Positions 7,265 to 62,133 of a DNA stretch of 64,000 bases are shown in pieces; within the stretch, counting starts at the first letter, position 1, and each line of letters begins with the position of its first letter. The notes under the pieces are model-generated. The model was not told the origin of the DNA. It did no database searches and was given only the letters and a program-made list of their open reading frames with translations. The stretch comes from Entoloma clypeatum (taxonomy: Eukaryota; Basidiomycota; Agaricomycetes; Agaricales; Entolomataceae), in contig OY751493.1 of the NCBI GenBank assembly GCA_963565915.1, positions 992,001 through 1,056,000 of the forward strand. Direction: 5' to 3'. The translations under genes and the position numbers were made by a program.

Positions 7265-7365
7265 GCCTGCCTAGCTCAATCGGATAGAGCATCAGACTCT
7301 TATCGATGACCTTGCCTGAATCTCGAGGAATCTGAAGGCTGCAAGTTCGACCCTCGCGGTGGGCT
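7265..7365 (+). tRNA. tRNA-Lys (CTT) with intron
   Basis: The acceptor arms GCCTGCC (7265-7271) and GGTGGGC (7358-7364) pair. The D arm reads TAGCTCAATCGGATAGAGC. The anticodon stem TCAGA/TCTGA surrounds a loop C-T-CTT-A-A that is interrupted after position 37 by an intron of about 27 nt. The T arm is GCAAG-TTCGACC-CTCGC and contains one A:C mismatch that the second tRNA-Lys copy in this window does not have. A run of T at about 7391 can serve as RNA polymerase III terminator. The T-stem mismatch could mean reduced function. Confidence 0.8.
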
Positions 7366-7707
7366 ATAGTGCAGTGGGCTCGGGAAATTTGTTTTTGTCG
7401 GTGTAGTCCATCGGACCAGGCAATTTGGCATGGTTGACCTGGTTGAGCCAGTGGCCGATTGGTTTGGTGAGTACTCCAGTAAGGCAAGCACCACAGGCCG
7501 GCTTACCTCAATCACACAGAGCGCGAGTCAGACGGGTTGTTCTGCGCCACAAGCTAACTGAAGCTCGCGGTGACTAGATGGACAAACGCCGGAAACAGTA
7601 TTTCTATTAGTGGTGTAGTTTGTTGGACCAGCCGCGTGAGATTGACCGATATATCGAGCTGTGGTTGTGCTTGACCACCAGTTTGAACTCGACATATGCG
7701 CAAGTTT
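7366..7707. other. Intergenic sequence with an imperfect internal duplication
   Basis: No gene is seen. Two related blocks, each with GTGTAG, then GGACCAG and GATTGACC/GGTTGACC (about 7400-7440 and 7611-7650), suggest an old imperfect duplication. The last 20 bp before the next LINE tail (GACATATGCGCAAGTTTTT) resemble 61961-61979, which lies upstream of the other tRNA-Lys gene. Confidence 0.4.
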
Positions 7708-8188: not shown

Positions 8189-8498
8189 TGTTGAAGTTCC
8201 ACCTGGGCGCTAGCCACAGGTGTACTGAGCAACATAGCTACAGTGGAAGTACTCTACGATACCGCTATAGTCACTTACATGGTTTGGAGGGGGTAAGGCT
8301 AGTGAGAGCGGTTGAGGCTGGTGAGAGCGATGGAGCTGGTTAAGAGTCAAGAGACAACTTGTTGATATTGACAGTTTCCTGGTCTTATATACCGTACTAC
8401 TGTTTGTACCAACCAAACAAGTATGTAATGAAGATATGTAAAGGTCACGTGATGTAATCTAATCTAATCTAATCTACGTGATGGGAAAAGTTTCAACA
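8189..8498 (-). repeat. Copia A1 3' LTR
   Basis: 310 bp, TGTTGAA...TTCAACA. It contains the TATATAAG box and CACGTGA E-box found in the other LTRs of the family. Confidence 0.92.
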
Positions 8499-8572
8499 CC
8501 CCCCCATATTTAGTACATACTTCTAAATACATCTTTACTTTTTCCCACGTATATATAGGTACTCTGTTTCGC

Positions 8573-11427
8573 CTAGTTCTTTATTAATCCGAAGTACGGG
8601 ATAAACTTGGAAAAGAGGATTTTCCCCAGATTCTTAGTTAAAAGGTCTGCAGGGTTATTCACTCCTTCGATGAATTCGACCGTAATTATTCCTTCGGAGA
8701 CTTTTTCTCTGACGAAGTGGAATCGCACGTCAATGTGCTTGGATCGCTTCTCAGTTACAGGGTTGGATGCGATAAAGACGGAGCCGTTGTTATCTCCATA
8801 GATCGGTACTGATCCGATCTGCATTCCAAGTTCGGCAAGCATGCTTCTCAGCCATGTTGCTGCGCGACTGCAATCTGATAGCGCCATATACTCTGCTTCT
8901 GTAGAAGAGAGGGCGATGGTCTTTTGCGCCGATGATACCCATGTTATCGCTCCAGACGCCAGTGATATGAAGAAGCCGGTGGTAGACCTCCTCGTGTTTT
9001 CATCTGACGCCCAGTCGGAGTCTGTGAATGCATAGATCCCTTTCCCTGAGTCCCCATCGTACATGATCGCGTAATTTTTTGTTGCCTTTAAATATCTGCA
9101 AATATCCCTAGCCACCTCTAAATGGCGTTTGGTGGGATTTGCGGAGAATTGGGACATTTTGATTACAGCAAAGCAGATGTCAGGCCTCGTTCCGATCATC
9201 AGATATAGGAGTGATCCGATGACGGATTGGTACTTAGATCGGAGTTCCGCATTGGGTTCATCTTCGGATGCCATGGGTTTGTAGCCCATAGGGAGTGGGG
9301 TATGGGTGGCATTAGATTCGCTCATCCCCATGCGTGCCAGAATTTTCTCAAGATAAGGTACTTGATCAATGAAGATCTTCTTCCCACGTTGCCTTATTTG
9401 GATTGAGAGAAATTCCTTTGGTTCCCCATCGGGCACTAGGTGACCTAGGTCCCTACATTCCCATGTTGTCATGAAGGCCTTCTTCTTTTCTAGCGTATAT
9501 TCCCGGTTTGTGCCGAGAAAAGCAGAGTCGTCGACATAGATGACGGCAATTACAATTTCCCCGTTGGTACTTTTGTGAATGAACACTCCTGCATCGGAGT
9601 GAAGCCGGACAAAGCCGAGCTTTTTCATGGAGGAATCAAGTTCCCTCCACCAGGCTAATGCGGCCTGCTTAAGTCCATATAGAGCTTTGAATAGTTGGTA
9701 CACGAGGTTTTCTTTCCCTTTTACTATGTAGCCCTCAGGCTGTCGCATGTAGATTTCCTCAAGGAGCGTTCCATAGAGGAAGGCTGATGAGACGTCCAAA
9801 AGAGTCATGAACCACCCTTCAAGGGCTGTCAATGCCAGTATTAGTCGGACGGTTTCATATCTTACGACTGGTGAGAAGATCTGATCAAAGTCGATCCCTT
9901 CTACTTGTGAAAATCCTTTTGCGACGAGGCGTGCTTTCAGGCGCCCGTCGGACTTTTCATTGTAAACCCATTTGTTCCTTAGAGCTTTCCTTCCTGCAGG
10001 CAGGGGTACTAGCTCCGTGATCACCCCGCGGCGTTTGAGCATGTCTAGCTCTTTACGTTCAGCCGCATACCAGTCTTCTTTATTTGGAAGAGGGTATATG
10101 TCTTTATGGGACATTTCAACGATGCCAACTTGGACTGATATTGCCTCCATCAGGAGGTCATTCATCCATGCCGTTTGACTGCCCAATCTCCGTCTTTGAT
10201 CTAATTTTTCAAGATCAGACGCTGGAGTGTCTTCCCCATAGATGCTTCCTGGCATCTTCCGAACTCGTCGTTCCCTGATCGGTCGATCTGGTACTTGCTC
10301 GGGTTCCGGAGTGGGTACTCGCGGTTCGTCATCAGGCTCACTGGCAGGCAGTTCGTTGTCTGATTCAGGTTGATTCTGTTCAATGGGAACTGGGTTATGA
10401 GGTGTTTCGTTGTGACTATCGTCATCGTTGCTGCCGGGAATGAGATCCTCAAACTCATCAGCCGGCTCTGGGTTTTCCATTTCTGGGTGGTTTTCTGGCA
10501 ACGGGTCAATGTGGCATCTAGGGTACTTGCTTTCATCAAAGATAGCTTTCCCGCCCATGAAAATCGTGTTGGTCTCAGGATCCATGAAGCGGTATCCTTT
10601 GACCCCTGGTTTCGATCCGAGATAAATCATCAATCGGGATCTTGATTCCAGGGAGTTCCTACGTTTCTCCTTTGGGATATATACATATGCCTGACATCCA
10701 AATACTCTGACACTAGACATGTCGGGGATCTCATTGGTCACCCTGAAGTAAGGGGTTTTCCATTCAAGACGCTGCATGGGGGTTCTGTTGTAGAGAAATG
10801 CTGCGTGTTCCAAACAGAATTCCCACCACATGGGCGGTAAGCATGCATCGAAGCGCAATGCCTGAGATTTTTCCCATAGTGTTCGATTGATCCTTTCTGC
10901 TCTACCATTCTGCTGGTGCTGATATGGGAGCGTGACATCGATCAGAATTCCATGATCGGCAAGTACATCCTTGTATTCGTCAAATTCTCCACCTCCATCA
11001 ACCCGCCACTTTTTAGGGGTAGCGGCAAATTGATTCTGGATCATCGCAAGGAATTGTTTCAGCGCCGTGATGGCGCCTGACTTCTTCCTAAGCAAGACGA
11101 CCCAGACATGGGATGAAAAATCGTCCAAAAAGGTAAGGAAATATTTGTACTTATGGTACGATGCCGTGGATATCTGTTTCAAATCCGAATGGATCAAATC
11201 AAAGGGTTTGACAGCCCTTGTCATCGAGTTAGGATAAGATTGATTCGGCATTTTCCCTTTTAGACACCCCGTGCAGCTTTCCTGTGATTTCTCACGTACT
11301 AACGTTTTGGGTACTCCTTTGGTACTGGTGGGAATCTTATTGAGCGCTTGGTCATTTGGGTGGCCAAGGCGTTTATGCCAGGTTTCGACAGTGATTTCGC
11401 TAGAGATCGCGTGGATTTGGTCATAGC
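8573..11427 (-). pseudogene. Copia A1 pol, downstream part (integrase, RT, RNase H)
   Basis: The frame begins at DQIHAISSEITVETWHKRLGHP (GAG-pre-integrase with H-H-C-C) and holds the integrase core (VDGGGEFDEY, then NGRAERINRTLWEK), reverse transcriptase (KARLVAKGFSQVEGIDF, IYVDDSAFLG) and RNase H (FTDSDWASDENTRRSTTGFF, STEAEYMALSDC). The stop is at 8573-8575. By alignment to A3 the protein is otherwise undamaged, but it is cut from its gag-protease half by the Gypsy insertion. The frame happens to stay open ~60 codons into the antisense Gypsy LTR. Confidence 0.9.
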
Positions 11428-12032: not shown

Positions 12033-13187
12033 ATGGACGACCCCAATCGCCTTGAACAGCTCGAGCACGAGTTCCAGGAACAACGTCAAACTCTCGCTGA
12101 TATCTCTACTCAACTTGACCAACTCCTCCTCGCCTTCAACGCAATTCCTGCCCCAGCTCCGCCACCTATCCCACCTGCTCCCGCACCCGCACCTCCACCT
12201 GCTCCGCTTGCTCCGGCCAATCCGGGCGTGCGTCGAGCAAAACCCGCCAATCCGTCAGACTTCGACGGATCGCACGCAAATGGCTGGACCTTTCTAAACT
12301 CCTGTGAATTGTTTATGGGGCTGGCTCCGGAACAGTTCGCAGACGACCACGCTAAAATTTATTGGGCCTTATCTTTCATGAAGAGTGGACGCGCAGCACG
12401 CTTTGCGGATCGCATTATCCGACAAGAGCGGAGGACCGGTGCTCCGCCTTATCGGACTTGGGTGGACTTCCGCGCCGTCTTTACAACGGAGTTCACTCCG
12501 AAGAATGAGGAACAGGACGCGAGACTGATCCTCGAAGGAGAATCCTATTATCAAGGTCAACGGGATGTCGAGACCTATATTGACGAGTTCAAAGACTACA
12601 TTGACAAAGCAGGCTATCAGGAGGATACCAATATAGTACTCAAATTCCGCCATGGTCTCCGTTCCGACATTCAGAACGAGATCGCCACCCTGACCCACGG
12701 ACGGCCTGCGGACGACAACCCCGATGAGTGGTACTCTGCAGCACGAGTCAACGACGACAATAGAATTGCCAACAAAGCCTTCAAAGCCACTGCTCCGACC
12801 CGCACATCCGCCTTCCGCAACGTCGTCGGACCAAGAGTACCTGGCACCTCAGTATTCCCTCGCCCCTACATTCCATTCACTCCGCGTCCAGCTCCGCTCG
12901 CATCCGCAACCGCTCCGCCGACAAGGGACCCTAATGCAATGGACATTGATACTTCACGCGTCAAAGGCAAGAATGCCAATGCATGCTTCAGATGTAACAA
13001 AACGGGTCACTTCAGTCGTGAATGCCCCCTTCGCTTCGACGTCCGATTCATGACGATGGAGGAACAAGACGAGTTTATCATGGAACAACTCGTGGTCAAG
13101 GACGCGGCGGAAGGCAACTCCGTTCCGCCCACGGAGTCTGCGGAGTCGGAGGGAGGACAGGAGGATTTTCCTCCTCACAACGAGTGA
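12033..13187 (+). CDS. Gypsy gag (capsid and zinc knuckle)
   Basis: 384 codons from ATG 12033. An N-terminal coiled-coil-like helix (residues 1-40) is followed by a proline/alanine linker, then a capsid-type retrotransposon gag domain (about 70-240, with FLNSCELFMGLAPEQF and YIDEFKDYIDKAGY). Near the end is a CCHC knuckle, CFRCNKTGHFSREC (about residue 315). Gag packages the element RNA into particles. The frame overlaps the pol frame for about 165 bases; pol lies in the -1 frame relative to gag, so ribosomal frameshifting is likely. I could not single out a slippery heptamer. The stop at 13185-13187 looks natural. Confidence 0.88.
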   Translation: MDDPNRLEQLEHEFQEQRQTLADISTQLDQLLLAFNAIPAPAPPPIPPAPAPAPPPAPLAPANPGVRRAKPANPSDFDGSHANGWTFLNSCELFMGLAPEQFADDHAKIYWALSFMKSGRAARFADRIIRQERRTGAPPYRTWVDFRAVFTTEFTPKNEEQDARLILEGESYYQGQRDVETYIDEFKDYIDKAGYQEDTNIVLKFRHGLRSDIQNEIATLTHGRPADDNPDEWYSAARVNDDNRIANKAFKATAPTRTSAFRNVVGPRVPGTSVFPRPYIPFTPRPAPLASATAPPTRDPNAMDIDTSRVKGKNANACFRCNKTGHFSRECPLRFDVRFMTMEEQDEFIMEQLVVKDAAEGNSVPPTESAESEGGQEDFPPHNE

Positions 13188-16100
13188 ACAGTGCGCCCTC
13201 GTTGTCTACTAAAAATCGTTATGCTGCCTTATTTATGGAACAATATGATCCTATACCCTCCATCTCTAAGCCTGCAAACGATCCTATAGTCGCACCCAAC
13301 TCCGCAAACCCTATCCGCATCCGCTTCTCTAAGTGGGAGCGGCGGCTTCCAAAACAATATGTTCTCGCCGCAGCCGCTCGCTCCGACAATTCCCTCGAAC
13401 TAGACATAGTTCTCGAAACTACCGACACTAAAGACATACTATCACAAAAGGCCTTACTCGACAGTGGGGCAACAGGATCGTTTATTGAACGTACTCTGGT
13501 CGAGAAACACCGACTCTCTACTCGAAAACTACAACGCGCAATTCCGGTATACAACATCGACGGAACTCCGAATGAGGCCGGAGCAATAACGGAGGTGTTG
13601 GACGTAGTGCTCCGCTATCGGGATCACTCGGAACGGACCCAGCTTGCAGTCACAAGTTTGGGAAAACAAGAAATCGTGTTAGGCTTCACTTGGCTCAAAG
13701 AACACAACCCCGAGGTAGATTGGACTTCAGGGGAAGTGAAGATGAGCCGGTGTCCTGCACGATGTCGGACATGCCAACAGGAGGCAGCCCAAGAGCGGAA
13801 GGAGCGGAAGTTCGAACAAGTCCGCATCCGAGCCTGTCGGATGGGTTCCACTCCGACGTCCGGTCTAGAGGAGGAGGCTCCACGCGGCCCATGGGTGGAG
13901 GATGTCACAGAAGGAGAAGAAACGGAGGAGTTAGCGGAAGACGATGAGGAAGAGGATGAGTTTGAGGAGGGAGACCGCCTTTTTGTCGGAACAGTACCTG
14001 CGGAGGCGGAGTTCATCCGCGCTTCATCCAATATCTCGCAACGTCTATCGGAGGCCTTCCTCAGTAACCAGAAACCCAAATCTTTCCGCGATTCCGTACC
14101 AGACCACTTGTTTGATTTCGAAGACGTATTCTCAAAGACCTCTTTCGACACCTTACCGGAAGAGCGGACGTGGGACCACGCCATTGAACTTGTTCCGGAC
14201 GCCTCTCCGGCGGGTTGTAAGGTATATCCGCTCGCCCCGAACGAACAGAAAGAACTCGACGCGTTTTTGGAGGAAAACCTTGCAACTGGTCGGATCCGCC
14301 CTTCCAAGTCTCCGATGGCATCTCCGGTGTTCTATATCAAGAAAAAGGATGGCTCCCTTCGTCTTGTACAAGACTACCGGTCACTCAATTCCAAAACTAT
14401 CAAAAACAAGTATCCGCTTCCGCTCATATCCGAACTGATCAATAAACTTCAACGCGCTCAATACTTCACCAAACTCGACATCCGCTGGGGTTACAACAAT
14501 GTACGGATAAAGCCCGGAGACGAGTGGAAGGCCGCTTTTCGGACCAATCGCGGACTCTATGAACCATTGGTGATGTTCTTCGGCCTCACTAATAGTCCAT
14601 CCACATTCCAGACTATGATGAACGAGATCTTTCAGGACCTTATCACTGAAGGTGTAGTTTGTGTTTACCTTGACGATATACTCATCTTCACGGAGACCCT
14701 TGCGGAACATCGGAGGGTCACACGGATTGTACTGGAATGACTTCGCGAACACAAACTCTATCTAAAACCAGAGAAATGCGAGTTTGAGCAAACGCGCATT
14801 GAATACTTAGGCCTTATTATTGAACAAGGACGCGTAGAGATGGATCCGGTGAAAGTAGCGGGGGTCGCGGAGTGGCCTGCTCCGACAAACGTCCGAGAAG
14901 TACAGTCCTTTCTGGGGTTCACTAACTTCTATCGCCGTTTTATTGAAGGGTTTTCGGACATCGCGCGCCCTCTTTTCGAGCTCACGAAGAAGGGGCACCT
15001 CTGGTCTTGGAAGGAAGGAGAAGTGTCCGCATTTGCGGAGTTGAAGCGGAGGATTACATCCGCTCCGATCCTGGTCTTAGCTGATCATCGAAAGGAGTGG
15101 CGGGTAGAAGTGGATAGCTCGGACTTTGCAACCGGAGCAGTACTGTCCCAACCAACAGAGGACGGTAAGTGGCACCCTGTCGCATTCTATTCCAAAAGCC
15201 TCAGTCCGGTGGAACGCAACTACGAGATCTATGACAAGGAGATGTTGGCAGTGGTCCGCGCATTAGAGGAGTGGAGGCACTTCCTTGAAGGAGCGGCAAA
15301 GACAGTGGAGATTTGGACGGACCACAAAAATCTTGAGTACTTCATGACAGCTCAAAAACTAAATCGACGACAAGCTAGATGGTCCTTATACCTCGCTCGT
15401 TTCGATTTTAAAATGCACCATCGACCTGGAAAGTCAATGGGCAAGTCCGACGCTTTGTCCCGACGAGCGGACCACGGAGACGGATCGCGGGACAACGAAA
15501 ACATCATCCTTCTTCGACCAGAATTGTTTGCAGTGCGAGCAATGCGTGGGGTAACTGTTCAAGGGGAAGAACGCGACGTCCTCTGCCAGGTCTGACAGGG
15601 AATCCGAGAGGGGCTACTGGAGGATAGTGTGGCGGAGGTCGTCAGATCCCTTCCGACCGTCGGAGCGGGGTCCGTCCGAAGTGCGGAGTGGAGGCAAGCG
15701 GAAGGTTTGCTCTACTTCAGGGATCGTATCTATGTTCCTAATAATCCCCAACTGCGTCATCAGATCCTCACACAACACCACGACACTCCGGTGGCCGGAC
15801 ATCCGGGACAGTGGAAAACCTTGGAACTGGTGTCGCGCAATTACTGGTGGCCACACATGTCTCGTTTAATAGGTCAATATTGCAAGACATGCGACTCATG
15901 CCTCCGCACCAAGGTCCGACGCACTCCGCCCTCCGGAGAGCTCAATCCACTACCGGTCCCCACGGAGCGGTGGCAAGTAACCAGTGTTGACTTCATTACT
16001 GAACTACCAGAAGCCCACGGCTACGACGCTATCATGGTGGTAGTGGACTCAGTAGGGAAGCGGGGACACTTCATCCCGACGCACTCCGACATCTCCGCAC

Positions 16101-17092
16101 TCGGGACTGCACGCTCCTATATTCAAAACGTCTGGAAACTCCACGGACTACCGGAGGCCATTGTCTCCGACCGCGGACCACAGTTTGTCGCCAAGTTCAC
16201 GTGCGAACTATATAGGCTACTTGGCATTAAGATTGCTGCCTCGACAGCCTACCATCCGCAGTCGGATGGACAGACGGAGCGGGTCAATCAAGGATTGGAA
16301 CAATATCTTCGCCTATTCGTCAATGAACGTCAAGACGATTGGGACGAATGGCTTCCGATGGCTGAATTTGCATACAACAACCATGTTCACGCATCGACAC
16401 GTCAAACTCCGTTCTACATTGACACCGGCCGCCATCCGCGCATGGGATTCGAACCTTGCGAGAAGCGGACGGAAATCGAGGCGGTAGCGGATTTCAGCGA
16501 GCGGATGAAGTCCGCTCTGGAAGAGGCTCGCGCAGCACTAACAAAGGCAAAAGACGACATGGCGCGATACTACAACCAGCATCAGAGCACCACTCCGACA
16601 TTCCGCCTGGGGGACAAGGTCTTTTTAGACTCATCGGACCTCAAAACCACCCGACCCACAAAAAAACTTGCACATCGGTACGTAGGCCCTTTCCCAGTGG
16701 TCCGACCTGTCGGAACACATGCCTACGAACTTCGCCTTCCCCCTTCCATGTCCCGCATTCACCCAGTATTCCACGTCGTCAAACTTTCACTAGTTCCCGA
16801 CGACCCTTTCCGACGCCAAGTCCGCTCTCCTCCGCCTCCGACGGTAGTGGGAGAAGAATTGGAGTATGATGTTGAAAACCTCTTGGACAGCCGACTGCAT
16901 CGAGGCAAGCTTCAATTCTTGGTCAAATGGAAGGGATATGGCTACGAAGAGAATTCCTGGGAAGCAGAAGACAATGTCCACGCTCCGCGCCTAGTCCGCG
17001 ACTTCTACCGACGTCATCCGGGAGCTCCGCGTCGGATCTCCGCTGCGATATTCGACTCGTTTCGCCTGACACGTCGAGACGCCGTGCCTTGA
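13022..17092 (+). pseudogene. Gypsy pol with two premature TGA codons
   Basis: In order: aspartic protease (ALLDSGATGSFI, about 13455-13490), reverse transcriptase (LRLVQDYRSLNSKTIKNKYP; catalytic VYLDDILIF near 14670), RNase H (VEVDSSDFATGAVLSQ, WTDHKNLEYF), integrase zinc region (H-H-C-C near 15780-15900), D,D,E core (SVDFITELPE, IVSDRGPQFV, HPQSDGQTERVNQGLEQ) and a C-terminal chromodomain (DSRLHRGKLQFLVKWKGYGYEENSWE). The frame is open except for TGA at 14738-14740 and 15593-15595. In both cases the family would normally have an arginine CGA, and both fit C-to-T change at CpG. The element is probably inactive despite its near-identical LTRs. Confidence 0.88.
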
Positions 17093-17103
17093 AGGGGGGG
17101 TGA

Positions 17104-17547
17104 TGTAAGGGCAACCACTTTGCACTTTCCCTTTCCGTTCATTTCCACCATCTCCGACGCCCTCCGACGCCCTCCGACGCCCTCCGATCGTATCTGTTGC
17201 CTCTGATATCTTATTCACCTCTCTGCACCTCTCCACATCCGACGACTCCGCGCCCCTCCGCTCCTCCGCACGTCGGATCGCAGGTACTATCATTCATCTC
17301 GTTTCCATTCATCCCCCATCCCTACTCCCGACCATTACTCATCATTCCTATGTCTCGTTTTATCTTTTATTTCATATCTCATTTTACTATTTATCTCGCT
17401 AGCTTGCAGGGGAATCCTTAGAACTTTCTCTTTGGATCTCCCTTGCAAGGTGTGTGTTGTATTACTTATCAGACTGCTCAATCTAATCTTCGGATCTCCC
17501 TTGCAAGTATCTGAGTTTGAGTCTTGGATCGTAAGGTCGCCCTTACA
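17104..17547 (+). repeat. Gypsy 3' LTR
   Basis: 444 bp, following the G-run polypurine tract at 17093-17103, with outer flank ATAGC. Confidence 0.9.
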
Positions 17548-28396: not shown

Positions 28397-29610
28397 TAGC
28401 AGAGGGACTTGGGAACGCTGGCAACAGCAAGTACCTGCCCACTCTACCCTGGTTGGCAAAGAACCGATTGAAAGATCTAGGTTCTGAGTCTTACTTCTTC
28501 ACACATGAACCTGGGAAACATCATTACGACAAGTACCTGTCATGAAGCGTCCCTAAGGGGATTGACTTAGTACACATCATGTGGAAACGTTGATTGTACC
28601 TCATACACTTCTGACAAAAAGGGTTTTTCCCACAACCGCTATTCCTGAAGGGAATATGTTATGAGGAATCATTTATTTGTTTTCTCTAAAAATCAAGAAC
28701 ATCACTGATTGGGAAAACTCCTTTTAGATTCATTAAAAATGTCTACCTCTCGCTCTGCTCTTGACACCATCGCCCCCTTTGACGGCATTGACTACCAAAG
28801 CTGGGCCGAGAAAATGAAGTCCTACCTCCTCCATCAAGGAGTCTGGCGCATTGTTTCTGGCGACATCACCCGTCCCGACATCGCCGACTTCACCACTACG
28901 GTCTCCACCAATGATCCCACCGATGCGCTGGTTACCACTGTTGACCAGCCCGGCTTCCGCAAGAAAGATAAAGCCTGGATCAGGGATGACGACGTAGCTC
29001 TCGGGGCGATACGCCTGAAGGTCTCTGAGGCGATCAGACGCCACATCAAAGACAGCACCTCGGCGCTTGACGCATGGGAAACGTTGAAAGATGCCTACTC
29101 CAAGGTATCCCTGGCTGTCATCTTCGGCGACTTCAAGGCCGCCGCCACCTACAAACTGTCTGGACGCGACCCTGTGCCCGAAATCGAACACCTGGGGTCC
29201 CTTTTCGCCCGGCTCGCCGATTCGAACTTTATCGTCCCAGATCTGATGCAGGCAATGATCCTGGCCAATGCGATTCCCGACGCCTGGTCGTCACTCTCCA
29301 CCGCCCTTTTCCAGGTCTACGACGCCGACGATTTCACCTACAAAGCCGTCGCCGAGAGCATCATCTCTGAATACCGGCGCAAGTACTCAATTGGGTCTAC
29401 TCATACGTCCAATGAGCAGGCCAAGAAAATTTCCGGGACAAAGCGAAAGGGGCAGGACCCCAAATGGGAAAAGCAGCAAAAGCCGAGTACCTCGCAGAAC
29501 GATGCTGACGAGCAGCCTAACTCGACCGACCCTAGTACCGCTTCCGAAAAGAAGAAGGGAAAAGGACGCTGGCACAATCAGAAGAAAAGCGCCAACACTG
29601 CGGACAACAC

Positions 29611-30048
29611 TGTTGAGAATACATTCTAGACGGATGTCTCGACAGTCAATCACATGTCTATAAACATGTGTATTCCCATATGGAGTTACATATGGAAGTG
29701 TTCTAGACTTAGAACAATCTAGACTCGCTCTAGATCCCTGACTCATTAAATATGTGTCAGACGTGCATAACATATGTCATGTTATGTCACATCATGTGCT
29801 TGTCACACTATATGACTATAAGTCACATATTACCATATATGTGAGTTTATGGTTCTGCGACAGAACTCAGTTTGTACTTGTTTGTACATGGTCTGTGCGC
29901 ATCCTTGTAGGTATAAATACTCGATGTATCTGTATCTGCAAATATAGGACTTTTACCAAGTACCTTCATCACTCAAGCTCTCTCTTCTTACCTCCAATGT
30001 GAGTATCTTACCCAGGCTTCCCTGCGTATGTAGGTGTGCTGTTCAATA
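29611..30048 (+). repeat. Gag-only element 5' LTR
   Basis: 438 bp with a TATAAATA box at 29912-29919. It is identical to the 3' LTR as far as I can read. Confidence 0.92.
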
Positions 30049-30160
30049 GGTTATGGGCCCCGGATTGCCCAGTACAGTCTGCGCACTCTAACGGAGTTGC
30101 TGCGACTGTCTAGCCTGTTAGATACTAACCTGGCCTAGCCAGTGAGCGCGAGTTTTAAAA

Positions 30161-33100
30161 GCGCCCTTTGGGCTGCTACCGCCTCTTTAGCTAGTAGCAT
30201 AAACTAGTCTAAGTTAGTTATCTGGTTTGATACTCGGAGGTTCCAGACTAGTGAGCGCCCTTTGGGCTGCACCTAGTTCTGATGTCCAAGACTAGCAAAG
30301 CGCCCCTAGGGCTGCATCTAGTTCTTGATCTAGACTAAGGCCTTTTATGGCCTATGTCTATATTTGGACATTTTGTATAAAGCCTGTGGCTTGAGCGCCT
30401 TGATAGGCGGCCGCCACACCCCTGTGAAAAACCCTCTCTTGTATCTGCGCCTTCTTTTGGCTGCGATCTAGATTTGGGGTTTTCTCATGCTGTGTCATGT
30501 CCTGTCTGGCATTTGGTTTTAACCAAATTGAGTATATCTCGATGTGCTGACATTCGGACATTACGATTCTCAGGAACTTTCTGTTCCTTGAACCTTTTTC
30601 GTCGATCAATCTTGATCTATTGCACCCTGTACCTGATAGAAGCGCCCTTTTTGGGTTGCCTCAGGAACTTCCCATTTTTTATCATGGTTGCACGATCTCA
30701 GATTTGATGCTGACTTAAAATCGTTCCTAGATGAAAGGATCTTGCATCTGCTTCCATTATGGTTTCATTCAAGCAAACCATTGGTCACACCATGACATCC
30801 GCGTTATTCAGCGTGATGATGGTTTCCACAGACGACACCTCTGTACTCTGGATTGCATGGTCACACCACGCATCCGGAAGGTGAAAGTCACGCAGCTGCG
30901 ATACGGACGGCATGCACGCCATGTCTGTACTCGCAAATGTGGAAAGAAAAAAGCAGTATGCATCCCCATCTATATTCTCTTCACTTGTTGAACTTTGACT
31001 CTAGGATCCCTGGGCGCCACGCCCAAGTAACATCCGGAGAGCTCGAACGAGGGACTTACCGTCCCCCTTCAATCATAGTGACGATGAAGAAAGGAGAATC
31101 ACACCCGAGGTTACACCTGGGGTAATAAAGATGGAGCAATCGCCTGATCTATAGGCGACCGTCTTTATGTAAAATACCACAGCATTGTGACCCTTAGTCA
31201 CATAAAATAAAGGCTATTACATAAACTCTCTCTGACATGTGTCACAAACAATTCAGACAATACCTCTTATCGGTTCAAATTGGTCTTGAATATTTGCTGA
31301 CCACTGTTTCTTTTTAGAAACAAACATGTCTTCAATCACTTCTTTGATTGCTGTTCCCGTTCTTGACGGCACAAACTACCCTGAGTGGGCGAACAACATG
31401 TGTTCGTTCCTTAGATCTCAGGATTTGTGGCAAATTGTTGATGGTGCTGAAAAGCGACCCTTGATGTCTGCTAACCTTACAAGGAAAGCCCATACAACTA
31501 AAGTCAAGGCATGGAACATTAGGGATCAAATGGCTTTAGCCAATATTCGACTTCGTGTCGACCCGTCGATCAAACTCACCAAAAATATGTCTTCTGAGAC
31601 TTGGTTTGAGTTGAAGAATAGGTTCGGACGAGCTGTTTATAAAACAGTTCTGTCTGACATTCGTGCTGCATTGTCCTTCAAGCTTTCTATGAAGCGACAA
31701 CCTGCAACCGAGATTGATTATCTTGATAAAATCTTTGATCATCTCGGTGCACATCATTCTATTTCTCCATCGACTCGGGCCCTAATGCTTCTATCTGCCC
31801 TCCCGTCTCCTGATTGGGATGACTTTGCCATAGAAACCCTTCTTTACAATGATGATCTCACCTATGATAAGGTTCGAGAATTGATTGTTGAAACATACAA
31901 TCATCATCGTGTTGATCCTGTTCCCGATTTGTCACTTGAGGATTACCTTTACGGCATAGGTATCTCCTATGATCCTCAACCGACATCGTGCGATGTTTTT
32001 CATCAGCCGTTTCGGAACTTATGGAAAAAGAAGTCTTTCTTATCTGCACCAACAGACCCTGGTGCTCTGCGCTACTCTAGCTGTGTCGCCGGTCTGGTGC
32101 ATGATGCCGTCATAACAGAACAATGCAAGGGTCCACCCGTCGACAATTATGACATAGCGTTTCCACGCCTGGACCTTATAACAGCATGATCATTGTGTAG
32201 AACGATTGTATTTTCTTTCTTTGCAATCAATACATTGATTTGCAATGTGTTCATATTTTGAACGAAAGAAAGAGAGATTTAAAAATGCAAATGCATTTTA
32301 TGTTCAAATAACTTATATCCAATCTGGAATAATTCCAATAAGTTGGATGTGCCGTTGAGCCACCTACTATAAAGGAAACAGCTTAATAAGCTTGTTAAAA
32401 AGACTGCGCGAGTCATTAATTTGTCTTTCTGCTGCGTCTGTCTTTCCTTTTCAGGAATTTATATTCCACCTTATATTGGATAAGACAAAAAATGATTTCA
32501 AAGCATTTAAAAAGTAATATTGTATTCGTGCGCTATGGCATTTGCATAACACTTATTCTGCGCCTTGACAGGCTGCGATAGTGTTCAAAAATTGTCATTC
32601 TGGCTGCCAATATATAATACTTTATTATGCGAAGAAGAGTTTTCCAACCCTTCAACCTAAATCGATTCAAATTGGTCTAGCCAACCAATCTTGTTCCTCC
32701 ACTCTTTCACCAAAAAGTAGTGATGATTTGGGGCAATGCAAAGCTTCTTATCTGAACTCTCCATTTCCTGCATGGGAATGATCTCTGATGCATCTTGCAC
32801 CTTTTAGGCTAGCATTGCATTTTGACTTATAAGGCATCTGCGCTTTAATCAAGCAGCGATGGCCTTGTCACAGAATCATATAGGGATGACCGTGATGGTA
32901 CACACCCTATGGCAAAAATGGATATAGTCAAAAAATCAGATTGTATCACAGCTTACAAATATTGCTGGAATAAATCGCCTGAGAGTAATTACCTCAGCAT
33001 AACTTGGAGAGTAATTCCTCCGCAGTTTGCGATTATTTTTTCTGCATGAATTTCTGGTTTCCCAACCAAGTTCTGCATCTATTTCAGTATATGCTCTTTG

Positions 33101-35388
33101 AAAGCCAAAGATACATGGGAAATGATTGCCATACTTGACTGTGAAAAGGGGGAGAATATAGAGAAGCATTTTAATGGCAGCATTCTGCGCTATTTGCTTT
33201 GCGATACCATTGCTAGAAGACTGATCTTTGATCTTTTGATCTCACCATCAGATGCATTGCTTCGTATACAACACTCTATAGGTTGTACCATTAAAGGAGC
33301 GCCGTGACCGCTGCATACTTATCAAATGGTCAACTTGAACAAAAGAAAAAGCTTATCCCAGCTTATACCCCTATGATTTCTCATCTAGAAACGATGAATT
33401 CTGGATAAAAGAGAATATCATATGAATCGATCCGTTAGTCTTATCAGACTATTGTTGGGTTCTATTCCCAAGTATATCTTCCATGATTACTTGATGAAGC
33501 ATCTTAATTGATGACTTACTAATAATGCATTAATTTGCATTATATGGTTCTTGGAATACCAAGATTACTATTGTTTGCATGAAACACATCAGAGTGCTTG
33601 TTACACTCTTAAGATTTGGATCAACCCATCATCTGATCTGCGCCTTGTTTTGGCTGCGACAATGATCCGGTTCTTGCATTGAGTAGAGCGCCTGTGTTGG
33701 CTGCCTCCTTTGACAAACAAGACCAAATAACACCCTCACGCGTTATTGTTGTATCATGCAACAAACATAGTAAATCTGTGTTGATGCCTTAGAGTGGATT
33801 CTCTATTGACCTCTGAACATAAATCGGTTGTTCACCAACATAAGTATTACCAACCACAAAGAACTACATTGCAAAGTCATTTATTTGACTATAATCTGCA
33901 ATATTGCTTGCACATCATCACATATAACAGTTGGCTTGATTGCCTATAAAATCTGTAAAATGTACTCCACGGAATTGGTTTTCAGGGGGAGTTAATTCAT
34001 TCTCTATTAACCCTAAAAAACAATCCACATGATGTTTGCTTGTCTAGCCTTTGCATAACAATGTGCGCCCCTTTGGGCTTGCCACAGTTACTAGGCTTGA
34101 TTATATCTGCGCTCAAATAATGGCTGCAATATCAATCATTGCGATTATATTTTGCAATAGCTTGGATAGTACGTCAGACGATATGGGAAACGATGACGGA
34201 ACTACCAGCTGTCTCAGATATTATATTCTGAAGACTCAACGTCCACTATGACGATAAACTAGACCCTACTCCGAAACAGAGCATAAACTATCACAGTGGA
34301 CTCTGAACCTAACTAGTTCATCCACATCCCTGAAGTCTGGAGTATTACACTCGACTCAGATGACATTATCTATAAGCACACCTTAAAAGTGTTGCCATGA
34401 TAATATTACATACTCAGGATAAAGGCACCCTTGTCTAAAAATCCATGGTTGTTAGCGCCTTATTTGGCAGCTTCCCAGAGTATAAATAAGCTATTTATAG
34501 CTTACATCATGCCAAGCATGATATCATCAGTTGGTTAAATGACCCTTTGAGCCAGATCAAGTCTGACGAGCTCTTAATTGAGTTGTGTCTTCTGACTTAT
34601 CCCCGGCCTTAGTGCCACATGCTCTTTCCATACTAGTTCTTGCGCTACTACTGGCTGCAACTACTATGTGATCCATAAAAAACTGAGTACCACTACGTCT
34701 TGAGCGCCTTCTTGGGCTGCCTGCATTGGTAGTCTCATTTTTTGTGTGAATCATGGTCAAAACCATTGATACTCGTCTGGAATGACAATAAACTATCACA
34801 CGTGGTTTGCTGATGCAATCAGGCCAAACACCTGACTCAGCATGGTCCGTGCGAGATAGGCAAAGCCTTAAATATGCTCCTCAAAGTTGAGTTTTAGAGC
34901 AGGCTTCCAATGGCATTCTTCGCCTACTTCTCCACCGCCTTTTACACTCGCTTCGCACATGCCGACCAGTTGGCGCATGTTGCCTCGACCAACGCCAGCA
35001 CCACCACCACCACCACTACTGCAGCCTCCGCCGCTGCTTCTTCATCGCCCTCTGGCAATAACACTGCCATGACCACCGACGATAAGACGTCAGAAAAGAA
35101 GTAAAAATAGTTAGTGGTACAAAGTAATTAAATAATCAATTACTTCAGTGGCTGCTCTAAGCGCTACACTGGCTGCTTCAAGCGCCATTATGGCTGCATG
35201 TTTATTGCACTATTTCATGTCTCTCAAAGGTATTTTTATCCTTTGATGATCTATTAATCTCAGATTGACTTCTGATGAGACCTGTCTATTCTTGCCTTGG
35301 AATTAGACTCATGGGTCTCTGATAAGACCTTAAATGACAGCGTATGCTAAACGACACAGCAGATCCCCTTTAGCGCCCTTACAGCTGC
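30161..35388 (+). repeat. Nineteen dispersed bulged mini-hairpins
   Basis: Copies of one design, GCGCC(C)-loop-(G)GGC-N-GC, in which a single extra base (mostly T, also A, G or TT) bulges before the closing GC. Starts: 30161, 30255, 30300, 30395, 30447, 30642, 32560, 32840, 33299, 33640, 33688, 34065, 34109, 34455, 34642, 34704, 35161, 35182, 35373. Loops vary in sequence and length (3-10 nt), while stem and bulge stay. All are in the same orientation, six in the leader and thirteen after gag. None is intact inside the gag ORF; a weak GU variant sits at 32069-32084. Confidence 0.8.
31326..32189 (+). CDS. Copia-type gag of the gag-only element
   Basis: 287 residues from ATG 31326 (MSSITSLIAVPVLDGTNYP). 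The layout follows UBN2-type Copia gag: WANNMCSFLRSQDLWQIVDG, then MALANIRLRVDPSIK, ETWFELKNRFG, AALSFKLSMKRQPATEIDYL and ALMLLSALPSPDWDDF. It aligns block by block with the gag of Copia A (SWAEKMKSYLLHQGVWRIVSG, etc.) but is clearly diverged. No zinc knuckle follows. It should form the particle shell and bind the element's RNA. The leader between LTR and ATG is unusually long, about 1.28 kb. Confidence 0.85.
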   Translation: MSSITSLIAVPVLDGTNYPEWANNMCSFLRSQDLWQIVDGAEKRPLMSANLTRKAHTTKVKAWNIRDQMALANIRLRVDPSIKLTKNMSSETWFELKNRFGRAVYKTVLSDIRAALSFKLSMKRQPATEIDYLDKIFDHLGAHHSISPSTRALMLLSALPSPDWDDFAIETLLYNDDLTYDKVRELIVETYNHHRVDPVPDLSLEDYLYGIGISYDPQPTSCDVFHQPFRNLWKKKSFLSAPTDPGALRYSSCVAGLVHDAVITEQCKGPPVDNYDIAFPRLDLITA

Positions 35389-35475
35389 TGCCATTTAATT
35401 TGGCTCTTCACTAGGACTTGAATGTCTTCTTGTGAACAAGTATTGAAACCTGACGGAATCACACTTGAGGGGGAG
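32190..35475 (+). other. 3.3 kb non-coding interior of the gag-only element
   Basis: There is no pol-like frame in any of the three forward frames. It contains 13 of the bulged hairpins. One 64-codon frame (34910-35104, MAFFAYFSTAFYTRFAHADQ, then Thr/Ala/Ser-rich) is more GC-rich than its surroundings. It could be a captured host fragment but matches nothing I know. Confidence 0.6.
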
Positions 35476-35913
35476 TGTTGAGAATACATTCTAGACGGAT
35501 GTCTCGACAGTCAATCACATGTCTATAAACATGTGTATTCCCATATGGAGTTACATATGGAAGTGTTCTAGACTTAGAACAATCTAGACTCGCTCTAGAT
35601 CCCTGACTCATTAAATATGTGTCAGACGTGCATAACATATGTCATGTTATGTCACATCATGTGCTTGTCACACTATATGACTATAAGTCACATATTACCA
35701 TATATGTGAGTTTATGGTTCTGCGACAGAACTCAGTTTGTACTTGTTTGTACATGGTCTGTGCGCATCCTTGTAGGTATAAATACTCGATGTATCTGTAT
35801 CTGCAAATATAGGACTTTTACCAAGTACCTTCATCACTCAAGCTCTCTCTTCTTACCTCCAATGTGAGTATCTTACCCAGGCTTCCCTGCGTATGTAGGT
35901 GTGCTGTTCAATA
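35476..35913 (+). repeat. Gag-only element 3' LTR
   Basis: 438 bp; outer flank AACAC. Confidence 0.92.
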
Positions 35914-38900
35914 AACACGTCCGACCATATTGAAGAAACGGTTGAGTTCGCTGCTCCCGCCATTCATTTTCCTCCTCTTCCGACGCCGTCCTTCACCACC
36001 ATCACTGGCCACGGGAAAATATTAAGTACCGCCCAGCCCGACTCCCAGAGGATGCAGTCTCTGCTGCAGCGGATGAATCCACCTCCGTCACAGTACACCG
36101 GACAGACTCCTAGAATGTCGTCAGCGTGGAAAAAGAACGAGAAGGTTAGGAAACTCGCCCGAGAAATCGGCGCCCGACCCTCTGGGTCAAATCTTCGTAT
36201 CCTGGATACCATCATCCCGGATGTTGACGAAAGGCCATCCAAGCAGCGTCGAGTCACTCCGCCGCTGGATCAAACCCTCAGCCGCATGGACATTGACCAT
36301 CAGAGCGAGCGTATGGGGCCGGACCAATTCGAAGATGGGCTTATTGAACTTGACGGTTCGTCATCTTCCTCTCCTGAATCTGACCAATTAAGGAAAGCTA
36401 ATAACACCTCCTTACAGACGTGTAAAATATTAGCTAGTACTAGTGCAGAATGTATGGATCATATTGACAACGATCTATATAAAAAATATACAAAGCACTT
36501 TGCGTCATGCACACACTGTAAGGAGAAAGAACACGCACAATGGATCTTAGACTCCGGTGCCTCGTTACACTTTACCCATGAGTTCAAGGACTTCGCGTAC
36601 TACAGGCCTCTTAAGGCTAAGCGATTTGTCCAAACAGCTGAAAAGGGAAAGAAACTGGAAATTCTCGGAGTTGGGGCTGTTCCAGTACGGCATACCCTAA
36701 ATGGGGAAGTAAAAACCCATCTTCTCCGACCTGTATTCTACATTCCGGACATGGACACACGCCTATTGTCCCTAGGCATCTTCCTTAATCACGGTTACAA
36801 AGTAGACGGAATGCGTGGAGAAATCAACATCTCCAAAGGACAGAACAAAATACAGTTCTCGCCTCACATTCTCGGACAAACCATTTATTGGTTAGATACT
36901 GAAATACGCTATGACCAAATCCACGTGATCTCTAGCGAAATCACTGTTGAAACCTGGCATAAACGCCTTGGCCACCCAAATGACCAAGTGCTCAATAAGA
37001 TTCCCACCAGTACCAAAGGAGTACCCAAAACGTTAGTACGTGAGAAATCACAGGAAAGCTGCACGGGGTGTCTAAAAGGGAAAATGCCGAATCAATCTTA
37101 TCCTAACTCGATGACGAGGGCTGTCAAACCTTTTGATTTGATCCATTCGGATTTGAAGCAGATATCCACGGCATCGTACCATAAGCACAAATATTTCCTT
37201 ACCTTTTTGGACGATTTTTCATCCCATGTCTGGGTCGTCTTGCTTAGGAAGAAGTCAGGCGCCATCACGGCGCTGAAACAATTCCTTGCGATGATCCAGA
37301 ATCAATTTGCCGCTACCCCTAAAAAGTGGCGGGTTGATGGAGGTGGAGAATTTGACGAATACAAGGATGTACTTGCCGATCATGGAATTCTGATCGACGT
37401 CACACTCCCATATCAGCATCAGCAGAATGGTAGAGCAGAACGGATAAATCGAACTCTGTGGGAAAAATCTCAGGCATTACGCTTCGACGCATGCTTACCA
37501 CCTATGTGGTGGGAATTCTGCCTGGAACATGCAGCATTTCTCTACAACAGAACCCCCATGCAGCGTCTTGAATGGAAAACCCCTTACTTCAGGGTGACCA
37601 ATGAGATCCCCGACATGTCTAGCATCAGAGTATTTGGATGTCAGGCATATGTATATATCCCAAAGGAGAAACGAAGGAACTCCCTGGAATCAAGATCCCG
37701 ATTGATGATTTATCTCGGATCGAAACCAGGGGTCAAAGGATACCGTTTCATGGATCCTGAGACCAACACGATTTTCATGGGCGGGAAAGCTATCTTTGAT
37801 GAAAGCAAGTACCCTAGATGCCACATTGACCCATTGCCAGAAAACCACCCAGAAATGGAAAACCCAGAGCCGGCTGATGAGTTTGAGGATCTCATTCCCG
37901 GCAGCAACGATGACGATAGTCACAACGAAACACCTCATAACCCAGTTCCCATTGAACAGAATCAACCTGAATCAGACAACGAACTGCCTGCCAGTGAGCC
38001 TGATGACGAACCGCGAGTACCCACTCCGGAACCCGAGCAAGTACCAGATCGACCGATCAGGGAACGACGAGTTCGGAAGATGCCAGGAAGCATCTATGGG
38101 GAAGACACTCCAGCGTCTGATCTTGAAAAATTAGATCGAAGACGGAGATTGGGCGGTCAAACGGCATGGATGAATGACCTCCTGATGGAGGCAATATCAG
38201 TCCAAGTTGGCATCGTTGAAATGTCCCATAAAGACATATACCCTCTTCCAAATAAAGAAGACTGGTATGCGGCTGAACGTAAAGAGCTAGACATGCTCAA
38301 ACGCCGCGGGGTGATCATGGAGCTAGTACCCCTGCCTGCAGGAAGGAAAGCTCTAAGGAACAAATGGGTTTACAATGAAAAGTCCGACGGGCGTCTGAAA
38401 GCACGCCTCGTCGCAAAAGGCTTTTCACAGGTAGAAGGGATCGACTTTGATCAGATCTTCTCACCAGTCATAAGATATGAAACCGTCCGACTAATACTGG
38501 CATTGACAGCCCTTGAAGGGTGGTTCATGACTCTTTTGGACGTCTCATCAGCCTTCCTCTATGGAACGCTCCTTGAGGAAATCTACATGCGACAGCCTGA
38601 GGGCTACATAGTAAAAGGGAAAGAAAACCTCGTGTACCGGCTATACAAAGCCCTATATGGACTTAAGCAGGCCGCATTAGCCTGGTGGAGAGAACTTGAC
38701 TCCTCCATGAAAAAGCTCAGCTTTGTCCGGCTTCACTCCGATGCGGGAGTGTTCATTCACAAAAGTACCAACGGGGAAATTGTAATCGCCGTCATCTATG
38801 TCGACGACTCTGCTTTTCTCGGCACAAACCGGGAATATACGCTAGAAAAGAAGAAGGCCTTCATGACAACATGGGAATGTAGGGACCTAGGTCACCTAGT

Positions 38901-39830
38901 GCCCGATGGGAAACCAAAGGAATTTCTCTCAATCCAAATAAGGCAACGTGGGAAGAAGATCTTCATTGATCAAGTACCTTACCTTGAGAAAATTCTTGCA
39001 CGTATGGGGATGAGCGAATCCAATGCCACCCATACCCCACTCCCGACGGGCTACAAACCCATGAAGTCTGAGGATGAACCCAATGCGGAACTCAGATCCA
39101 AGTACCAATCCGTCATCGGGTCACTATTGTACTTAATGATCGGGACAAGACCCGACATTTGTTTCGCCGTGATCAAGATGTCCCAATTCTCCGCAAACCC
39201 TACCAAACGCCATCTAGAAGTGGCTAGGGATATTTGCAGGTATTTGAAGGCGACAAAAGATTACGTGATCATGTACGATGGCGATTCTGGGAAAGGGATC
39301 TACGCATTTACAGACTCCGATTGGGCATCAGATGAAAACACCAGGAAATCCACTACTGGTTACTTCATATCACTGGCGTCTGGAGCAGTAACATGGGTTT
39401 CGTCAGCGCAGAAAACCATTGCCCTCTCTTCCACGGAAGCAGAATACATGGCGCTATCAGATTGCAGTCGCGCAGTGACATGGCTTAGAAGCATGCTTGC
39501 CGAACTTGGAATGCAGATCGGATCAGTCCCGATCTATGGAGATAACAATGGCTCCGTCTTTATCGCATCCAACCCTGTAACTGAAAAGCGGTCCAAGCAC
39601 ATCGACGTGTGATTTCACTTTGTCAGAGAAAAAGTATCCGAAGGAACTATTACGGTCGAATTCATCAAAGGAGTGAATAACCCTGCAGACCTTTTAACTA
39701 AGAATCTGGGGAAAATCCTCTTCAACAAGTTTATCCCGTACTTTGGATTACTTAAAAACTAGACGAAGAAAGAGTACCTATATGGGAAAAAGTAAGATGT
39801 ATTTAGAAGTATGTACTAAATATGGGGGGG

Positions 39831-62045: not shown

Positions 62046-62133
62046 GCCCGCCTAGCTCAATCGGATAGAGCGTCAGACTTTTAATGCGGGCGGACCAATC
62101 TGAAGGCTGCGAGTTCGACCCTCGCGGTGGGCT
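62046..62133 (+). tRNA. tRNA-Lys (TTT) with intron
   Basis: Acceptor GCCCGCC (62046-62052) pairs with GGTGGGC (62126-62132). The D arm is TAGCTCAATCGGATAGAGC. The anticodon stem TCAGA/TCTGA has loop C-T-TTT-A-A interrupted after position 37 by an intron of about 14 nt. The T arm GCGAG-TTCGACC-CTCGC is fully paired. A T-run at about 62156 fits polymerase III termination. It looks functional, unlike the slightly worn CTT copy at 7265. Confidence 0.9.

Follow-up and report, generated by a model that had tools for sequence, protein, structure and literature searches.

Non-autonomous long terminal repeat (LTR) retrotransposons of the TR-GAG type have LTRs, a primer binding site (PBS), a polypurine tract (PPT) and a gag domain but no pol; they are known from plants, and no repeated hairpin is mentioned in the available part of their description (PMC6022998). 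In wheat, RLG_Sabrina_SA and RLG_WHAM are semi-autonomous gag-protease elements, with RLG_Wilma as their likely partner (PMC9744471). Here we describe a gag-only copia element of TR-GAG layout from the fungus Entoloma clypeatum, located in a stretch of 64,000 nucleotides (contig OY751493.1, positions 992,001 to 1,056,000 of the forward strand; hereafter the window), which carries 19 small bulged hairpins of one design. It resembles RLG_Sabrina_SA and RLG_WHAM in coding for gag, these being thought to depend on an autonomous family of little overall similarity, but they belong to the gypsy superfamily and also code for a protease, and the accessible text mentions no RNA motif (PMC9744471). Our preferred reading, to which we give a probability of about 0.47, is that the element is a non-autonomous copia LTR retrotransposon whose hairpins may be a distributed packaging or assembly signal read by Gag.

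Ty1 is a member of the copia superfamily. In this yeast element, sequences that act in cis in RNA packaging lie close to the 5' end, together with a 5' pseudoknot; like our element, Ty1 is an LTR element, for which further, scattered packaging sites are expected by a review, and it differs in having one 5' region with the pseudoknot, no repeated short hairpin being named in the available parts of these papers (PMC4974528, PMC8396678). A repeated hairpin of the present kind in an LTR element was not found in the literature searched, which was available in part.

The TR hairpin of MS2 has its bulge on the 5' arm and makes loop-specific contacts, unlike the hairpin described here, in which the bulge is on the 3' arm and the loop is free. 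MS2 is an RNA phage in which the capsid protein binds TR, with dispersed packaging sites of lower affinity along the RNA; the likeness lies in a short hairpin with further sites over the RNA (PMC8472981).

Hairpins of one design in a gag-only element

The element spans 29611-35913 (6.3 kb). Its two 438-bp LTRs are identical, so the insertion is recent, and it lies within an older copia element, splitting the gag of the latter (28709-29629) from its pol (35899-39612). The single gene found is a 287-aa copia gag; two pol queries matched gag only, plus short matches at E 0.5 or worse. All features of the TR-GAG type are present, namely an LTR pair with target-site duplication, PBS, PPT and gag domain, without pol. 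They are listed below, where L011 denotes a copia element of the same genome with a 1602-aa gag-pol frame.

29606..29610: left target-site duplication, AACAC
29611..30048, plus strand: 5' LTR, 438 bp, TGTTGAG...TTCAATA; contains the TATAAATACT promoter block, common to the L011 LTR (77% over 170 nt)
30049..30061, plus strand: PBS, GGTTATGGGCCCC, which we take to be of the half initiator-tRNA-Met type
31326..32189, plus strand: gag open reading frame (ORF), 287 aa, Retrotran_gag_2 of copia type (PF14223, 2e-10)
35466..35475, plus strand: PPT, TGAGGGGGAG, exactly the L011 PPT
35476..35913, plus strand: 3' LTR, same sequence as the 5' LTR
35914..35918: right target-site duplication, AACAC

A first-pass annotation of this DNA had proposed 19 hairpins of one design in the element, and the 19 sites can be listed, all on the plus strand:

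30161..30176, plus: GCGCCCTTTGGGCTGC; pair 6 is T-A in the diverged copy L022
30255..30270, plus: GCGCCCTTTGGGCTGC; pair 6 is G-C in L022; forms poorly in local context folding
30300..30315, plus: GCGCCCCTAGGGCTGC
30395..30411, plus: GCGCCTTGATAGGCGGC, G bulge; inner three pairs only in context folding
30447..30464, plus: GCGCCTTCTTTTGGCTGC
30642..30659, plus: GCGCCCTTTTTGGGTTGC; third pair G.U in 18/30 copies, A-U in 12/30
32069..32084, plus: hairpin within the gag 3' end; five core pairs in 30/32 copies, closed by G.U in 4 of those, the window copy among them
32560..32576, plus: GCGCCTTGACAGGCTGC
32840..32857, plus: GCGCTTTAATCAAGCAGC, A bulge (G in 5/32 copies)
33640..33657, plus: GCGCCTTGTTTTGGCTGC; retained in L022 with a shorter loop
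33688..33704, plus: GCGCCTGTGTTGGCTGC
34065..34082, plus: GCGCCCCTTTGGGCTTGC, 2-nt bulge
34109..34127, plus: GCGCTCAAATAATGGCTGC
34455..34471, plus: GCGCCTTATTTGGCAGC, A bulge
34642..34658, plus: GCGCTACTACTGGCTGC; within 34601..34659, homologous to the L011 leader after the PBS (1343-1401; 76%)
34704..34720, plus: GCGCCTTCTTGGGCTGC; within 34687..34722, homologous to the L011 LTRs at their U5 end (1281-1315, 86%; 7648-7682, 89%)
35161..35176, plus: GCGCTACACTGGCTGC
35182..35197, plus: GCGCCATTATGGCTGC; unformed in local context folding
35373..35388, plus: GCGCCCTTACAGCTGC; C.A mismatch in the window copy, which is unformed in context folding; C-G in 6/7 copies

These sites share the design GCGCY-loop-RGC-N-GC, mostly with a U bulge and all in the RNA sense, the count of 19 allowing U-A and G.U pairs beyond the strict pattern. 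The annotation held that the stem and a one-base bulge at a fixed place are kept throughout, which is true in general; the exceptions are the mismatched stem of the window copy at 35373 and the two-nucleotide bulge at 34065. Its further claim that the hairpins avoid the gag ORF applies to 18 of them, but not to 32069. A twentieth candidate, 33299, was not counted because its fifth pair is mismatched in 32/32 copies (C.C in 31, U.C in 1). The element has 29 listed GCGC words, of which, by eye, 20 start a hairpin or this near-miss.

The consensus is U-N-W-GCGCY-loop-RGCUGC-N-W-C. Across 25 sites (20 in the window, 33299 included, and five in L011) position -1 is A/T in 25/25, -3 is T in 16 and +3 is C in 16. 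Among 29 hairpins from three sources, part of which came from a Y-R pattern, with open searches yielding the same picture, the first inner pair is C-G in 19, U-A in 4, U.G in 4, C.C in 1 and C.A in 1; the bulge is U in 23, A in 5 and G in 1. When sites are folded with 60 nt on either side, all five core pairs reach P>0.7 at 11/19 sites and four do so at 2.

Chance does not account for these numbers. The strict form GCGCC N3-9 GGC N GC has 11 matches on the plus strand and 0 on the minus strand in the 64 kb, 11/11 of them inside the element, which bears out the RNA-sense orientation first proposed. With GCGC plus one Watson-Crick pair against GC-N-GC, the element has 12 on plus and 3 on minus, and the other 57.7 kb have 0 and 0; the mean of 1000 dinucleotide shuffles is 0.052 (maximum 1). 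If the added pair is not demanded, the element has 17 on plus and 3 on minus and the remaining DNA has 3 on each strand, the shuffles giving 0.175 on average and 4 at most; with two added pairs the element has 7 and 0. A similar density in shuffled or unrelated DNA, which the annotation had named as evidence that would tell against it, was thus seen neither in the shuffles nor elsewhere in the window. When 4-mer by bulge designs were scanned, the hairpin came out as the top design of the element, with 13 against a maximum of 6 in 30 shuffles. Genome-wide, GCGCCN(3-9)GGCTGC has 440 and 406 matches versus 54 and 39 for the reversed pattern, though this control contains more CpG and may be an underestimate; for GCGCTT N3-8 AAGCTGC, 9 matches stand against 6 in the control, with no clear excess. 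A search with 4227 Rfam models gave no match at E<=1 in 29000-36500.

Just after the PBS, at 30081-30103, there is a related GCGCA structure with two bulges, GCGCACTC..GAGT-T-GC-T-GC, which lies outside the 19 and is an exception to the first-pair rule.

Conservation and paired changes among copies

Genome-wide searches covered 60 Mb in 20 contigs. At least 37 gag matches have an identity of at least 94% over at least 266 residues, 30 of these without internal stop; a diverged gag set, among the matches listed, lies mostly near 64-75% identity. One set for conservation comprises 29 loci found via gag and not via the hairpin, which cover 11 sites (33299 left out). All five core pairs are intact in 263/278 site-copies of this set, and 33299 is mismatched in 29/29 loci. 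Variation per base is 0.0034 in the non-CpG core, compared with 0.0153 in flanks, 0.0144 in loops, 0.0095 in gag, 0.0118 in other non-coding sequence and 0.0372 at CpG-type core sites, a class that includes TG and CA. Across all fetched copies, with four duplicate loci dropped, the five core pairs are found in 353/376 site-copies at 19 sites (353/408 with 33299), and the non-CpG core varies at 0.0034 versus 0.0154 in flanks. The copies are kin, so that these counts are not independent. Positions and stems are nevertheless kept across the family, contrary to the second outcome that the annotation had regarded as damaging.

Where the stem is broken, this is mostly an A.C at the CpG of GCGC. The mixture of G.U and A-U at 30642 weakly supports pairing, G to A being also the usual CpG decay. 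By eye, young CpG decay in GCGC runs both to U.G, which is tolerated, and to A.C, which is broken, and it therefore favours neither RNA nor DNA. The hairpin might in principle have its role, such as in template switching, in single-stranded minus-strand cDNA or at the DNA level, and strand bias cannot separate RNA from minus-strand cDNA. However, at 30642, 34109, 34642, 35161 and L011 1384 the wobble found in most copies is G.U in the RNA sense and would be A.C on the other strand, and we consider such a role very improbable.

The diverged copy L022, with a gag 67% identical to that of the gag-only element, provides paired changes. At the 30161 site it reads GCGCCT..AGGC, a compensatory change from C-G to T-A, and at the 30255 site GCGCCG..CGGC, a compensatory change from C-G to G-C with nearly identical flanks; at 30395 it has a C.A mismatch. 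Because L022 was chosen from a pattern list, selection favoured intact stems at three of its GCGCC..GGCTGC sites, two towards the 5' end and one at 8492, but the sixth-pair changes lay outside the selecting pattern. The two sixth-pair variants recur 101-103 nt apart at six genome places, five of which lie 1.2-1.5 kb upstream of a diverged gag.

L022 also bears on whether the hairpins are functionless mobile or copied GC-rich units spreading in AT-rich retroelement DNA, the alternative named by the first-pass annotation. Yeast mitochondrial GC clusters are insertion elements of this kind, with many small hairpins in non-coding organelle DNA. Sponge mitochondrial DNA has repetitive hairpin-forming elements, likewise many small hairpins in non-coding DNA that are insertion elements, from which ours differ in being nuclear, in one orientation and without insertion alleles seen (PMC2800124). 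GC-rich hairpins do sit in AT-rich non-coding DNA here; a 24-nt unit is common to the sites 30443/33636 (96%) and 37 nt to 30158/30297 (73%), the flanks of 32560/32840 are slightly above random (28/60 against a maximum of 26 in 300), and eight sites fall, in whole or in part, within sequence that L022 lacks. Mobile units would have no fixed orientation, whereas 12 plus-strand and 3 minus-strand hairpins are found (7 and 0 with two added pairs). Two sites with a hairpin in only one of the two copies can be aligned (near 32340 and at 34455), and there the window copy is separated from L022 by substitution and a gap of 1 nt, not by insertion of a hairpin. The core is constant while loops and outer pairs differ, and three hairpins are located in the gag frame of L011. 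This alternative is weakened by these observations, though eight sites lie in or beside L022 gaps, and we regard it as improbable.

The autonomous-type family and other elements of the genome

The same hairpin occurs in L011. A gag search with L011 gave at least 150 matches, at least 107 of them at 83% identity or above, a few being split. L011 and six relatives (L014, L015, L016, L021, L024, L026) were selected by an LTR match to the hairpin pattern; the hairpins at 1384, 2284, 3088 and 3333 fall outside the selecting pattern.

1298-1313: L011 LTR hairpin, ending 20 nt before the PBS (from 1334)
1384: L011 leader hairpin, GCGC...GC-N-GC in 6/7 copies
2284, 3088, 3333: L011 gag-frame hairpins, GCGC...GC-N-GC in 6, 6 and 3 of 7 copies

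The L011 frame has three hairpins when two added pairs are demanded, compared with 0.07 in codon shuffles, and 0/2000 shuffles reach three; with one added pair and a shorter span it has two, which 1/2000 codon shuffles reach. The opposite strand has 1 and 0 under the same two settings.

The two families are linked by more than the hairpin. Their LTRs share the 170-nt block, within which lies a TATA box, and the PPT and first LTR bases are the same over 16 nt; on LTR block, PPT and LTR start they would belong to one lineage. No such promoter block was found in the LTR of the older copia family compared. Inside the non-coding 3' part of the gag-only element, 26 nt at 34171-34196 match L011 pol (24/26 identical). 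The flanks of 300 site pairs were also compared: the two pairs in captured pieces are highest (32 and 31 of 60; next 28), with a random maximum of 26 and a mean of 0.274 versus 0.264 for random. With only two pairs having clearly similar flanks, two sites arrived together with sequence like that of L011, and most of the others have no longer stretch in common.

These links could mean that both families descend from a hairpin-bearing element and that the hairpins persist without present function, as the related LTR promoter, PPT, LTR start and leader pieces would allow. Just 2 gag-only sites align with L011 sites by flanks, however, and among young copies the core is less variable than the flanks, so that ancestry alone is a highly improbable explanation. 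The L011 family, which is new here, may be the helper, being an autonomous-type copia of the same genome with the same hairpin.

Among the copia families at 30-36% gag identity, one was covered (three window elements and one in L012); its five coding stretches are without the hairpin, even in the form without an added pair. A design scan of this other family gave no analogue in clear excess (its top design counted 6 in one of the three segments, where shuffles reached 5). One prediction of the packaging idea is borne out by the autonomous-type family, whose LTR is related and carries the hairpin beside the PBS, while the other copia family has none.

Relatives of the gag-only Gag were found neither in a large protein set at E<=0.001 nor in viral contigs. 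The C-terminal part of the protein (encoded at 31326-32189) does not align with other gags, and the basic tail of those is absent. An AlphaFold2 model from a 10-row alignment had a mean pLDDT of 42 and was not used.

A long single hairpin of the same design, GCGCCGG-TTAWT-CCGGC-T-GC, is present at more than 10 genome places, among them:

L012 886 and 9412, minus strand
L018 1121, minus strand
L019 1080, plus strand

One L012 copy sits in a 538-aa frame without Pfam match. In L012 identical direct repeats of 1389 bp (1-1389 and 8527-9915) flank a stretch with a copia element. The window itself is rich in transposable elements, with three of one copia family (LTR pairs at 8.2/20.1, 28.1/40.1 and 50.1/55.9 kb), one chromodomain gypsy and one Plavaka transposase, the last of which points to a mushroom-type basidiomycete. 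The gypsy element at 12251-17265 has many unbulged TCCG..CGGA hairpins (8, shuffled maximum 5), which are identical on both strands and may be compositional. Two tRNA genes, one of them tRNA-Lys, lie at 7265-7365 and 62046-62133, and their lengths suggest introns.

A possible packaging signal or host-protein site

The strand bias, G.U in most copies, paired changes and base-specific core point to a recognition site at the RNA level. A degenerate hairpin recurs over the RNA, as expected of distributed packaging signals, and a hairpin by the PBS and in gag of the L011 type, together with multiplication in the gag-only family, would fit a packaging or assembly signal. The packaging interpretation of the first-pass annotation is in this way partly supported. 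The recognition unit would have a free loop on the 5-bp stem GCGCY/RGC-U-GC, in which one base is bulged. L011-type elements would supply reverse transcriptase and integrase to the gag-only element, and the protein binding the hairpin, as a packaging or assembly signal distributed over the RNA, would be either the L011 Gag or the gag-only Gag. The gag-only RNA exceeds the L011 RNA about fourfold in hairpins and contains captured pieces of the L011 leader and U5; it could then compete for particles. More tentatively, this may be a distributed hairpin packaging code, in which the L011-type RNA has about five hairpins and the gag-only parasite nineteen, gained partly by capture of helper leader and U5, and in which signal dose would decide particle filling.

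The main rival, which fits nearly as well, holds that a host RNA-binding protein with a part in export, localisation or stability of long RNA recognises the hairpin, which both families would use and the gag-only element would have multiplied. It shares the sequence evidence set out for packaging, and the hairpins are spread along the whole RNA and not confined near the 5' end. On contig C1, 22 pattern matches lie outside both families (by eye) versus about 9 expected from the reversed-pattern control, so that some host sites may exist. Eight of the 22, however, are in other repeats or pairs (four of L012 type, a subtelomeric pair and one close pair). The control pattern also contains more CpG than the motif does, so that its expectation may be an underestimate, and one other copia family manages without the hairpin. 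A host-protein site appears rather unlikely.

Several observations weigh against a Gag-read packaging signal. The gag-only protein is without the basic tail present in other gags, and at 27% identity over 157 aligned positions its Gag is not closely related to that of L011. At 6/19 sites folded in local context, no more than three of the five core pairs have P>0.7. Some breaks are common to several copies (30300 in 3/31, 30447 in 4/31), and the six fetched loci that cover the 3' sites besides the window were selected by the hairpin pattern and are biased. The L011 LTR hairpin is present in 7/7 copies, but these were selected by exactly that hairpin, and L011 site 3333 keeps GCGC in just 3/7. 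In L022 the two compensatory changes are two events, there is no hairpin at 30300, 30447 or 34455, five sites lie wholly in gaps (34065, 34642, 35161, 35182, 35373) and three partly (32840, 34109, 34704); further diverged copies came from patterns demanding pairing. In the unbiased design scan the hairpin shares first place in L011, its 5 occurrences being within what shuffles give (maximum 6), and it does not lead in L022 (4), so that the counts in these two elements tell only because the motif was already defined.

For Ty1 and Ty3, Gag binding sites and packaging structures are described in a review as not clearly defined, and scattered sites may contribute (PMC4974528). A hairpin repeated 19 times in one RNA and found again in its probable helper offers a countable object for this question of Gag sites in Ty-type elements. 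If the packaging reading is true, it would show how a retrotransposon parasite obtains its share of particles.

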